Program-made: the position numbers and the translations under genes
The notes under the pieces: model-generated
Told to the model about the DNA's origin: nothing
What the model saw: only the letters and a program-made list of their open reading frames with translations
Databases searched by the model: none
Assembly (NCBI GenBank): GCA_027492035.1
Contig: JAOZFT010000004.1
Location: 434,001-498,000 of the forward strand
DNA from: Thermoproteota archaeon
GTDB taxonomy: Archaea > Korarchaeota > JAOZGF01 > JAOZFZ01
DNA length: 64,000 bases
Reading direction: 5' to 3'
Shown here: piece by piece, positions 7,405-20,929 of the stretch
Numbering within the stretch: position 1 is the stretch's first letter
Layout of the letters: each line of letters opens with the position of its first letter

Positions 7405-8758
7405 CTACTTTCTAATTTTTATGTATTGGTAGGCTTCAGCAGCTGTCTCGAAACAGTAATGTACCTCTTGGAAGCTTTTTTTGAATTCTTTTACATCATT
7501 TAATACTTTCTCAGGTTTCTCTTTGTCTATTATTACTCTTTTCATAAAGTCTGCAATTTCCTCCATGTCTTGTTCCTTCATCCCTAGCCTTGTAACTTCA
7601 CTTGTACCTAGTCTTATTCCGCCTGGATGCTCGTAATGTCTCCCTTCCCGAATATCCCAGGGTAAAAGGTTTCTATTAACTATTATGTTTGCCTTTTCCA
7701 GTTCTTTTTCAATTGCTGCACCATCTCCATACTCCGAAATATCTACGAGTAATGTATGACTCTCAGTGAACCCTTTGTCAGCTGCTACCACCTTGAAGCC
7801 TCTCTCATAAAGTGATTCCCCAAGTTTTTTTGCGTTCCTAATTATTTGTTTTGCGTATTCTTTTCCAAACTTTAGGTGCTCAGTTAAAGCTATAGATAAA
7901 GCTGCTACGCAGTTTAAGTGGTGGTTACTCACTAGCCCAGGGAAAGTAGCTCTTTTAATTTCCTCGAAACACTCCTTTTTCCCTACAACCATCCCATGTT
8001 GAGGACCTGGTAAAGTCTTGTGGGTTGACATTGAAATCACGGCTGCTCCTTCCCGCAGAGGGTCCTGAAACAAACCTGCCCCTATTAAGCCCGCTACATG
8101 AGCTGCATCATAAGCCATAACTGAACCTACTTCTTGAGCTGTTTCGACGAACTCTTTCACTGGATGTGGAAACAAGAATACACTCCCTCCAAACATTAAC
8201 AGTTTAGGTTTCTCCCTCTTTATCTTTTTTATGGATTTATCTACGTCAATGTTCATTTCTTCTTCATTGAATTCGAAGTATTCCACGTTTAATCCTTTCA
8301 CAGCACCTGCTGTGCCTCCTATGAATGAACCAGTTTTTGATTTTAAAGGACCAGCTGAAATATGTCCCCCCTTACTTATAGGTAAGGCGAAAATTTTGTC
8401 TCCTGGTTCGGTGAAGGCCGTATAGACAACTAAATTGGCCACAACACCAGAAATAGGTCTTACGTCAGCAAATTCTGACCGGAAAAGTTCTTTAGCTAAC
8501 TCAATAGTTATTTCTTCCACTTCATCTATATATTTGCAGCCTGCATAAACTCTCTCTCCGGGCCAACCCTGCAGAAGCCCTTAGTTTTCATCTAAGGACT
8601 TACTCTGCGTATCTGTGCCCGAAGTCAGAAACTAATGCCTCTCTGACAGCTGGACTCGTCACATTTTCACTGGCAATTAAAGGGATGGCATCTATAAACC
8701 ATTCATGATGTTTCTTCAACAAATCGAAAATTCTTCTGTAACTTTCTTCAGGTTCCAA
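7405..8758 (-). CDS. glyA: Serine hydroxymethyltransferase, interrupted by a 34-nt BHB intron (join of 8758..8603 and 8568..7405)
   Basis: Interconverts serine and glycine while loading one-carbon units onto a pterin. Exon 1 (8758-8603, 52 codons) starts at TTG 8758 behind GGTGATGG; the next in-frame codons upstream include a stop. It encodes the conserved IPLIASENVTSP and SDFGHRYAE. A TAA follows at once. The reading resumes at 8568 with GWPGERVYAGCKYIDEVE, exactly the next residues of the family signature. Joined, the protein is 439 aa, the normal size, with AAHVAGL (PLP-stacking His209) and Schiff-base Lys236 in STHKTLPGPQ. Read without splicing, the gene would give only a 52-aa peptide, or an enzyme lacking about 68 N-terminal residues. 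It is divergent from endA. The alternative, a small disruptive insertion, is less likely given the fold. Confidence 0.9.
8569..8602 (-). other. Predicted BHB-type mRNA intron (34 nt) in glyA
   Basis: On the minus strand, exon 1 ends GCAGAG and the intron starts UAAGUCC and ends CUUCUGCAG, before exon 2 GGUUGG. The fold has three parts. A 10-bp inner helix pairs AAGUCCUUAG with CUAAGGGCUU around the loop AUGAAAA. The central helix is exactly 4 bp, GCAG:CUGC. Two 3-nt bulges are AGU (5' side) and AGG (3' side). Cutting after the second nucleotide of each bulge (AG^U, AG^G) removes 34 nt between codons (phase 0) and restores A-E|G-W-P. The outer helix is weak: two pairs, C-G and A-U, then a loop before GGGC:GCCC. 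This is the hBHBh' substrate of the archaeal tRNA endonuclease. Confidence 0.87.
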
Positions 8759-8895: not shown

Positions 8896-10032
8896 TTGGA
8901 AAATATGTCAGAGGTTAAAAAAATGGCGGAAGCCGAAGTTACTTTAAGCGGTGAACTAAAAGGGAGAAAGGTATTCTTAGAAGGTCCAAAAAAGTCCATA
9001 CAAGAGTACATAAATAAAGGCTTTGGTTATTGGGAGGCTGACTCTGAAACTTTAGAGCTTCACCTCATAGAAGCCCTTTATCTCCTAGAAAAAAATAAGA
9101 TAAATCTTTATAAAGGGGAAAAACAGTTGGAAAGGAGCGATTTACTTAATGAATTGAAGGAGAACGAAAATGATTTCTTAAGATACCTTGTTTACAAAGA
9201 TTTAAGGGATAGAGGGAGGATAGTAAAGATTGGACCCTTAGATTTCCTTAGGCTCTTTGTTGGCCAGTATAAACCTGAGGATTCTGTTTCAAGATATTTT
9301 ATTTTCGCTTTATCTGAAGAAAAGCCTATGCTGTTTCAAACACTTACGAAGTTAATAAACGAAAGCTCGAAACTTAGGAAAGAACTACTGTTAGCCATAG
9401 TCAACGATGAAGGAATAATCTCTTACTATGTTACACGGAAAATAGATATTTTATCAATTGATGTTCCACATTTAGATTTTGAAAATGTTGAAGCTTACCT
9501 GTACGGTGACCGTTTAGTCATTTGGAACATAGAAAAAGCCAGAGAACTGTATGAGAAAGGTTTTTTCGGGCATCCGATAGGGATAAGGAAACCTAAATCC
9601 TTTGAGTTTGAACAACCATCTCTCCTGTCTCTCTACGAAGCCCATTACTTGCTGAAAAAGAAAAAAATAAAAGTCATCGACCCAAAAAACGGTAAAGAAC
9701 TGGATCTGGAATCTTTCGTAGAGAAAGCTAAAAGTTTAAGGGAAAGGTTTGACATACGTTGTCAAGTATATGACTACTGGCGTGACAAGGGCTATGTGGT
9801 GAAAAGTGGTTCACTGTACGGTGTAGACTTTATAATCTATTTAAGAGGCCCTGGAATGGATGAACATTCAAAGTACATGAACCATGTTTATTCAGAAAGT
9901 TCAAGTTTCATACCCTTAGAAATTATTAGGGCGGGAAGAGTAGCTACTACTGTAAGGAAAAAACTAATCTTATCTTTATTAAACAAAAAGGGGGAGATAA
10001 ACTTTTACAAGTTTTCTTGGCATAAACCTTAA
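8896..10032 (+). CDS. endA: tRNA-splicing endonuclease, fused two-unit (alpha-2) type
   Basis: Cuts bulge-helix-bulge RNA to release introns. The 378 aa form two tandem units of about 188 aa. The C-terminal unit carries the catalytic triad: Tyr315 in DFIIYLRGPG, His324 in MDEHSKYMNHV, and Lys355 in TTVRKKL, with family-like spacing (9 and 31). In the N-terminal unit the equivalent stretch (GPLDFLRLFVGQYK to LRKELLLAIV) keeps the fold pattern but lacks Tyr and His, so it is probably structural. The start is TTG 8896; ATG 8905 or ATG 8923 are alternatives, and no clear ribosome site is seen. The gene is divergent from intron-bearing glyA. It is longer than the roughly 300-aa Archaeoglobus protein. 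Confidence 0.93.
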   Translation: MENMSEVKKMAEAEVTLSGELKGRKVFLEGPKKSIQEYINKGFGYWEADSETLELHLIEALYLLEKNKINLYKGEKQLERSDLLNELKENENDFLRYLVYKDLRDRGRIVKIGPLDFLRLFVGQYKPEDSVSRYFIFALSEEKPMLFQTLTKLINESSKLRKELLLAIVNDEGIISYYVTRKIDILSIDVPHLDFENVEAYLYGDRLVIWNIEKARELYEKGFFGHPIGIRKPKSFEFEQPSLLSLYEAHYLLKKKKIKVIDPKNGKELDLESFVEKAKSLRERFDIRCQVYDYWRDKGYVVKSGSLYGVDFIIYLRGPGMDEHSKYMNHVYSESSSFIPLEIIRAGRVATTVRKKLILSLLNKKGEINFYKFSWHKP

Positions 10033-13816: not shown

Positions 13817-13911
13817 TGGACCGGGTGGGATTTGAACCCACGACCTCCGCGAATCTGCTTTAAAGATTTAAATCGCCAACGCGGCGTTCATTCCAACTGA
13901 ACTACCGGCCC
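13817..13911 (-). tRNA. tRNA-Ala(GGC) with a 21-nt anticodon-loop intron
   Basis: On the minus strand the acceptor GGGCCGG pairs with CCGGTCC, including the alanine identity wobble pair G3-U70, and the discriminator is A. The D-arm GTTC/GAAC has GG in its loop. The anticodon stem is CCGCG/CGCGG, and the T-arm is GTGGG-TTCAAAT-CCCAC. The anticodon loop holds 28 nt instead of 7. With the intron at 37/38 the mature loop is UUGGCGU, anticodon GGC. CCA is not encoded. It lies 29 bp after the L37e stop on the same strand and may be cotranscribed with LSm and L37e. Confidence 0.94.
13853..13873 (-). other. Predicted tRNA-Ala intron (21 nt, position 37/38), relaxed BHB
   Basis: Read on minus, the intron runs from AUUUAA to GCAGAU. 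The inner helix UUUAA/UUAAA closes on loop AUCU. The 5' bulge is CG^A and the 3' bulge AU^U. The central helix pairs loop bases 32-35 (UUGG) with GCAG by three pairs (U-G, U-A, G-C) plus one G-G mismatch, so it is a relaxed motif. Boundaries are fixed mainly by restoring a 7-nt loop; G37 is less usual than A37. Confidence 0.72.
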
Positions 13912-19477: not shown

Positions 19478-20929
19478 TTAACCTTTCACAACCCCTACAG
19501 GTTTCATCCTGACTACTAACAGAGAAACTCCTGCTTTATGCATGGATAAAGTAACTTGATCGACATTTTTATAGCTTCCAGGTGCCTCTTCTGCAGCTAC
19601 AGCGAAAGATGCAGGTTTTACATAGATCCCTCTGCTCTGGAGTTCACTTACTACCTGCCTACCTGAATACCTCCTCTTCGCTGCTGCTCTGCTTAAAGTC
19701 CTCCCGCTTCCATGACATGTTGAACCGAATGTTTCCTCCATTGCTTTCTTTGTTCCAATTAAAACATAAGATGCAGTGCCCATTGAACCGGGAATTAATA
19801 CAGGTTGTCCAATTTCTCTATATTCTATAGGTATTTCTTTCCTCCCTGGCCCGAAAGCACGTGTAGCTCCTTTTCTATGCACATAAACCCTAATTTTTTC
19901 CCCATCCACTTCATGTTCTTCAAGTTTCGCGATGTTATGAGCAACATCATAAACTACCTTCATTCCAAGGTCTTCAGAGCTTGCGTTGAAGATTTTCTCA
20001 AAGGTTTCCCTTGTCCAATGTGAAATAAATTGTCGATTAGCGAAGGCATAATTTACTGCACATTTCATTGCTTTAATGTAATCCTCAGCCTCTCTCGACT
20101 TCACATATGCGCAGGCAAGCTGTTTATCCGGTAACTTAAAATCCAGTTTGTTTGAATAGCCAAGCATAACCTTTAAGTAATCTGTTGCTATTTGATGACC
20201 GAATCCCCTGCTTCCCGTGTGGAGCATGACAACAATTTGTCCAAGTTTTTGGAAACCAAGTTTCTCAGCTATTTCTTTATTGAAGATTTTGTCTACAACT
20301 TGAATTTCTAAGAAGTGATTACCTGACCCGAGGCTCCCCAATTGGGGGCAGCCTCTTTGTTTAGCTCTTGAGCTAACCTTAGCGGGGTCAGCTCCTTCCA
20401 TCTTTCCGTTTTCTTCAATATATCTTTCATCACTCTCTAAACCGTAACCATGCTCAATAGCCCATTGGGCACCTTCAACACAGATTTCCTCTATCTCTCT
20501 AACCGTGAAACGGATTTTCCCTTTACTTCCCAAACCTGAAGGCACATTTTCAAACAATTTATCAATTAAATTTTTCAATTTAGGCTTCACATCCTCAAAA
20601 GTAAGAGAAGTAACCATTACCCTAACTCCGCAGTTAATATCGAAACCCACTCCTCCAGGGGAAATAATTCCCTCTTCAGTGTCAAAGGCAGCAACCCCGC
20701 CAATGGGAAAACCATAACCCCAATGTATGTCAGGTAAACCTATAGCATATTTCTGTATCCCAGGGAGCATGGTTATGTTAGCTAACTGATCTAAGGCTCC
20801 TTTCTCAACTCCTTGGAGCAAAGATTTTAAAGCAATAACTAAACCCTCTGTTTTCATGCCTTTCTTATAACTTTTAGGAAGTAACCATCGCACTTCATCT
20901 ATTTGTTTCAGGAAAGACTCAACTCCCAT
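19478..20929 (-). CDS. rtcB: RtcB RNA ligase (tRNA and intron-exon joining)
   Basis: Joins the 2',3'-cyclic phosphate and 5'-OH ends left by the splicing endonuclease, using GTP and Mn2+. Metal and catalytic motifs are intact: GVGFDINCGVR, LGSGNHFLEIQ, HTGSRGFGHQ, HNIAK, HRKGATRAFG, and TCHGSGR, which holds the guanylated His. ATG 20929 follows AGAGGAGGT, giving 483 aa; an in-frame TTG at 20947 is inside the ribosome site. No intein is present, although some archaeal RtcB genes carry one. It would process the tRNA-Ala, tRNA-Gly and glyA introns seen here. Confidence 0.97.
   Translation of the reverse strand: MGVESFLKQIDEVRWLLPKSYKKGMKTEGLVIALKSLLQGVEKGALDQLANITMLPGIQKYAIGLPDIHWGYGFPIGGVAAFDTEEGIISPGGVGFDINCGVRVMVTSLTFEDVKPKLKNLIDKLFENVPSGLGSKGKIRFTVREIEEICVEGAQWAIEHGYGLESDERYIEENGKMEGADPAKVSSRAKQRGCPQLGSLGSGNHFLEIQVVDKIFNKEIAEKLGFQKLGQIVVMLHTGSRGFGHQIATDYLKVMLGYSNKLDFKLPDKQLACAYVKSREAEDYIKAMKCAVNYAFANRQFISHWTRETFEKIFNASSEDLGMKVVYDVAHNIAKLEEHEVDGEKIRVYVHRKGATRAFGPGRKEIPIEYREIGQPVLIPGSMGTASYVLIGTKKAMEETFGSTCHGSGRTLSRAAAKRRYSGRQVVSELQSRGIYVKPASFAVAAEEAPGSYKNVDQVTLSMHKAGVSLLVVRMKPVGVVKG

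Follow-up and report, generated by a model that had tools for sequence, protein, structure and literature searches.

On the minus strand of the 64,000-nucleotide stretch of archaeal DNA analysed here (the window), the serine hydroxymethyltransferase (SHMT) gene glyA is split into two pieces with 34 nt between them. Exon 1 (8603..8758, minus strand) opens with a TTG start at 8758 and runs for 52 codons in frame, matching positions 6-50 of the Pfam SHMT domain and ending with F-G-H-R-Y-A-E. Exon 2 (7405..8568, minus strand), with 387 codons and a stop, begins with GWPGERVYAG, matches the remainder of the Pfam domain beyond the part of exon 1, and is 78% identical to the intact gene of a relative. 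The insert (8602-8569, sense strand TAAGTCCTTAGATGAAAACTAAGGGCTTCTGCAG, 34 nt) is a predicted intron of the bulge-helix-bulge (BHB) type (8569..8602, minus strand), with UAA at its start and CUGCAG at its end, so that the codon right after exon 1 is TAA (8602-8600). Taking out the 34 nt produces an uninterrupted 439-aa SHMT in which RYAE is joined to GWPGERVYAG in phase 0. Exon 1 and the insert both terminate in AG, which allows the boundary to be set at any of three positions with no change in the product. A first-pass annotation of this DNA had claimed that the frame stops after RYAE and restarts 34 nt on at GWPGERVYAG, that removal is exact and in phase 0, and that the initial UAA makes translation without splicing a 52-aa dead end. 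Sequence, coordinates and frame were as described, the gap in the alignment of relatives falls at the same spot as the predicted junction, and TAA does follow codon 52.

The genome contains a single SHMT locus, and the search for a second intact glyA returned only a partial match with 26% identity on another contig. Substitutions relative to the nearest relative are concentrated at third codon positions in both exons (26/47 in exon 1 and 220/328 in exon 2); these codon-position counts were used instead of a dN/dS ratio, which was not computable because synonymous sites are saturated. This relative (G001) also carries, on its contig C52, a second and divergent SHMT (46% identity), with no counterpart in the genome of the window.

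Comparison of the locus among related genomes, as proposed in the first-pass annotation, revealed the insert in one genome only, and its absence from the nearest relative and from all archaeal relatives covering the site. In this nearest relative (the MAG 'Thermoproteota archaeon Flange_M5_B4', the only other genome of the GTDB family compared), glyA is intact, 78% identical, and in the same divergent arrangement with the endonuclease gene, and the insert site reads AGATACGCAGAGGGCTGGCCC. The third genome of the class, represented by three genomes in the comparison, encodes an uninterrupted SHMT with 46% identity. More broadly, the junction was covered unbroken in 78 of 80 named archaeal loci, the 2 others ending before it, and its motif is near-invariant (Y50 in 80/80; A51, E52 and G53 in 79/80 each). 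Since the relative carries GCAG without the insert, the exon side of the central helix described below can occur in its absence. The intron was probably acquired once this lineage and that of the nearest relative had separated, parsimony favouring a gain in the lineage of the window's genome.

RNA structure of the insert

The first-pass annotation had described a BHB core with a 10-bp inner helix, a 4-bp central helix and the cut sites AG^U and AG^G; the RNA is able to form this core in the right register. On the minus strand, the inner hairpin with its 7-nt loop occupies 8575..8601, as deduced from the fold, and the central helix would pair the exon strand GCAG (8605..8608), also present in the insert-less relative, with the intron strand CUGC (8571..8574), as indicated by sequence and fold. 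The predicted 5' splice site lies between 8603 and 8602 within the bulge AG^U (8602..8604), and the predicted 3' splice site between 8569 and 8568 within AG^G (8568..8570), a bulge or internal loop. Folding of the region on the sense strand with RNAfold gave z = -6.7 against shuffles; a fold of the plus strand was set aside as irrelevant, since glyA lies on the minus strand. With exon 1 fixed, none of 1,000,000 shuffles of the 34 nt reached 14 of 14 pairs in the exact register, and 2 reached 13 pairs.

Both strands of the 666-kb contig C9, which includes the window and was the part of the 1.87-Mb genome scanned, were searched for elements with a 4-bp helix and 3-nt bulges whose removal joins two open reading frames. 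The glyA core ranked first among 273 candidates (-15.7 kcal/mol), followed by candidates at -12.2 and -9.5, and other lengths of the 5' bulge, scanned on part of the contig, gave at best -11.2 and -10.9. The scan yielded weaker candidates for further mRNA introns on C9, none of them convincing and at least one of them a tRNA gene. The glyA insert itself is not repeated on C9, and an origin from a mobile hairpin family or from a tRNA intron was rejected, no match longer than 13 nt being found on this contig, where all detected tRNAs lie.

The fold nevertheless departs from the strict form claimed initially. Shifting the helix by one step (GCAGA:UCUGC, bulge GUA) gains 1.0 kcal/mol of stability over the strict register (5' bulge AGU), which would represent ~14% against 85% for the shifted fold, in isolation at 37 C. 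The 3' AGG, described as a bulge, folds as a 4x4 internal loop, with only two possible exon-side pairs behind it. The strict fold was therefore rejected as the minimum-energy structure, above which it lies by 1 kcal/mol, and the glyA motif is best described as relaxed and HBh'-like rather than as a textbook BHB, because the shifted register has the lower energy and the exon-side helix is weak.

Candidate processing enzymes and tRNA introns of the same genome

The divergent neighbour of glyA encodes a tRNA-splicing endonuclease, EndA, made of two fused units (8896..10032, plus strand). It is the only splicing endonuclease of the genome, where a search for a second endonuclease gene found none, and it is the enzyme that probably makes the cuts. 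The N-terminal half looks like a tandem-fused EndA unit of the sort found in other two-unit enzymes. For the C-terminal half, the best PDB matches are chains 2cv8 (E 4e-35) and 3p1z (E 5e-34), taken here to be the catalytic subunits from the crenarchaea Sulfolobus tokodaii and Aeropyrum pernix. The catalytic half carries the loop GHPIGIRKPK, in which R-K231-P-K aligns with K44-P45-R46 of A. pernix and does not vary among the three genomes of the class. A crenarchaea-specific loop (CSL), recognised near the active site by a conserved Lys, then Pro or Val, then Lys or Arg, has been linked to the cleavage of relaxed motifs, and the sequence alignment places such a loop in EndA. By contrast, CSL-type enzymes combine separate alpha and beta subunits in an (alpha beta)2 assembly, while EndA is a single fused chain of two units. 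As judged from its sequence, this combination of a fused chain with a crenarchaea-specific loop does not fit cleanly into the usual subunit classes, and the AlphaFold model of the protein was poor (pLDDT 57, pTM 0.44). The relaxed glyA motif would suit this enzyme, because its K-P-K loop is of the type tied to relaxed-motif cleavage. The likely enzyme for exon joining, an RtcB RNA ligase, is encoded at 19481..20788 on the minus strand (G000:C9:453481-454788).

Introns with the same predicted geometry (4-bp helix, 3+3-nt bulges) occur in at least seven tRNA genes of this genome, and their predicted removal yields normal tRNA-Arg, Lys (with an intron in the T loop), Tyr, Ile, Val, Gln and Asn. 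The tRNA-Lys(TTT) gene (C9:419964-420054, minus strand) bears its 16-nt intron at this non-canonical position. Another tRNA gene, at 13817-13911 of the window (minus strand), has an intron-like insert of ~20 nt in the anticodon loop and is found with Rfam but missed by ARAGORN. All 35 tRNA matches (35/35) fell on C9, though this contig represents 666 kb of the 1.87 Mb (150 of 188 candidates scored).

Proposed splicing of glyA and alternative explanations

Insert-less relatives, a single SHMT, exact removal, the presence of EndA and RtcB, and tRNA introns of the same geometry all support the BHB-intron reading of the first-pass annotation. Since the insert looks like a tRNA-type intron, the glyA mRNA is probably cut and rejoined by the tRNA-splicing enzymes. 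We thus consider it highly probable that the pre-mRNA of the single glyA carries a lineage-specific BHB-type intron that is excised by EndA and sealed by RtcB, the splicing being deduced from these genomic features. The GCAG at the end of exon 1 would pair with the CUGC at the end of the intron, beside the 10-bp intron hairpin; EndA would then cleave the pre-mRNA at AG^U and at AG^G; RtcB would join the exons, which restores RYAE/GWPG in phase 0, and might also close the 34-nt intron into a circle. We infer cleavage and ligation from the precedent of cbf5; the spliced mRNA would then be translated. Because the unspliced mRNA gives a 52-aa stub, splicing would be needed for the SHMT enzyme, before or faster than translation.

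Alternatively, a recent hairpin-forming insertion could have broken glyA, leaving a pseudogene in a cell that lives without SHMT. The unspliced frame does end after 52 codons, and a very recent event would show no further decay; but 387 more codons remain open with coding-type substitutions, no further copy of the insert occurs on the contig, and a random insertion would hardly be expected to create pairing with the adjacent exon at the very place where excision repairs the frame. As both exons keep coding-type substitutions and no other SHMT that could substitute was seen in the genome, decay of glyA is very unlikely. Slightly less probable still is an assembly or sequencing artefact, by which the 34 nt would not exist in the chromosome of the organism: the assembly is a draft of 42 contigs, but the site lies within a 666-kb contig, the 34 nt have no source elsewhere on it, and an intron-exon helix in splicing register would not be expected from an artefact. 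Programmed ribosomal hopping, with take-off at GAG, 34 nt skipped and restart at GGU, is hardly credible: the stop right after the take-off codon and the hairpin in the gap do recall gene 60 of phage T4, where both features reportedly occur, but the landing triplet CAG mismatches the take-off GAG at its first base, the exon-intron helix GCAG:CUGC is left unexplained, and we know of no archaeal case.

Beyond splicing itself, we speculate that a race between cutting by EndA and passage of the ribosome may regulate glyA. A scenario in which the divergently encoded EndA, through this race, sets the supply of SHMT (a glycine and one-carbon enzyme) and the intron was recently gained at a pre-existing GCAGAG^GG, with the empty site in the sister genus, seems improbable as a whole.

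Comparison with known archaeal introns

The cbf5 pre-mRNA introns of Desulfurococcales and Sulfolobales are unconventional BHB elements in which cleavage falls after the second bulge residue and before the third, and spliced cDNAs are on record (PMC2738675). The glyA intron resembles them as a BHB-like, unconventional element within an archaeal coding gene, with lineage-specific presence and predicted cuts between the same residues (PMC2738675). However, cbf5 encodes an RNA-modifying enzyme and glyA a metabolic one, the cbf5 intron is ancient and common to two orders while that of glyA comes from a single genome, and splicing was demonstrated for cbf5 (PMC2738675) whereas for glyA it is predicted. 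Archaeal tRNA introns with relaxed BHB motifs (HBh', hBH; PMC4090602, PMC6379350) share the 4-bp central helix and 3-nt bulges with the glyA intron, but sit in tRNA rather than mRNA, and the strong inner and weak outer helices of glyA are the reverse of most tRNA introns in the same genome. In Haloferax volcanii, the mRNA of HVO_1309 also bears BHB sites and is processed by the endonuclease, as is predicted for glyA, but its intron lies in the 5' UTR (PMC7714728) rather than within the coding sequence.

Apart from the 5'-UTR intron that it describes, this 2020 study considered cbf5 as the only intron reported in archaeal mRNAs (PMC7714728), and our search of the literature, later papers included and with subscription papers and preprints mostly outside its reach, found no BHB intron in archaeal coding regions beyond cbf5. 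The first-pass annotation had named cbf5 and a few genes of Thermoproteota as the main documented cases, and had regarded an SHMT intron as undescribed. The cbf5 of the window's own genome appears intronless, its TruB-domain match (11-149 of 149) having no internal stop.

Within the searchable literature, glyA is thus probably the second archaeal gene with a coding-region BHB intron, after cbf5, and this second case concerns a near-universal metabolic enzyme in a lineage outside Desulfurococcales and Sulfolobales. With the empty site visible in a sister genus, it becomes possible to test the gain of an archaeal mRNA intron. Our results suggest that genes bearing such introns may be silently truncated by gene finders, and that tRNA-type mRNA introns may arise sporadically wherever the endonuclease is permissive.
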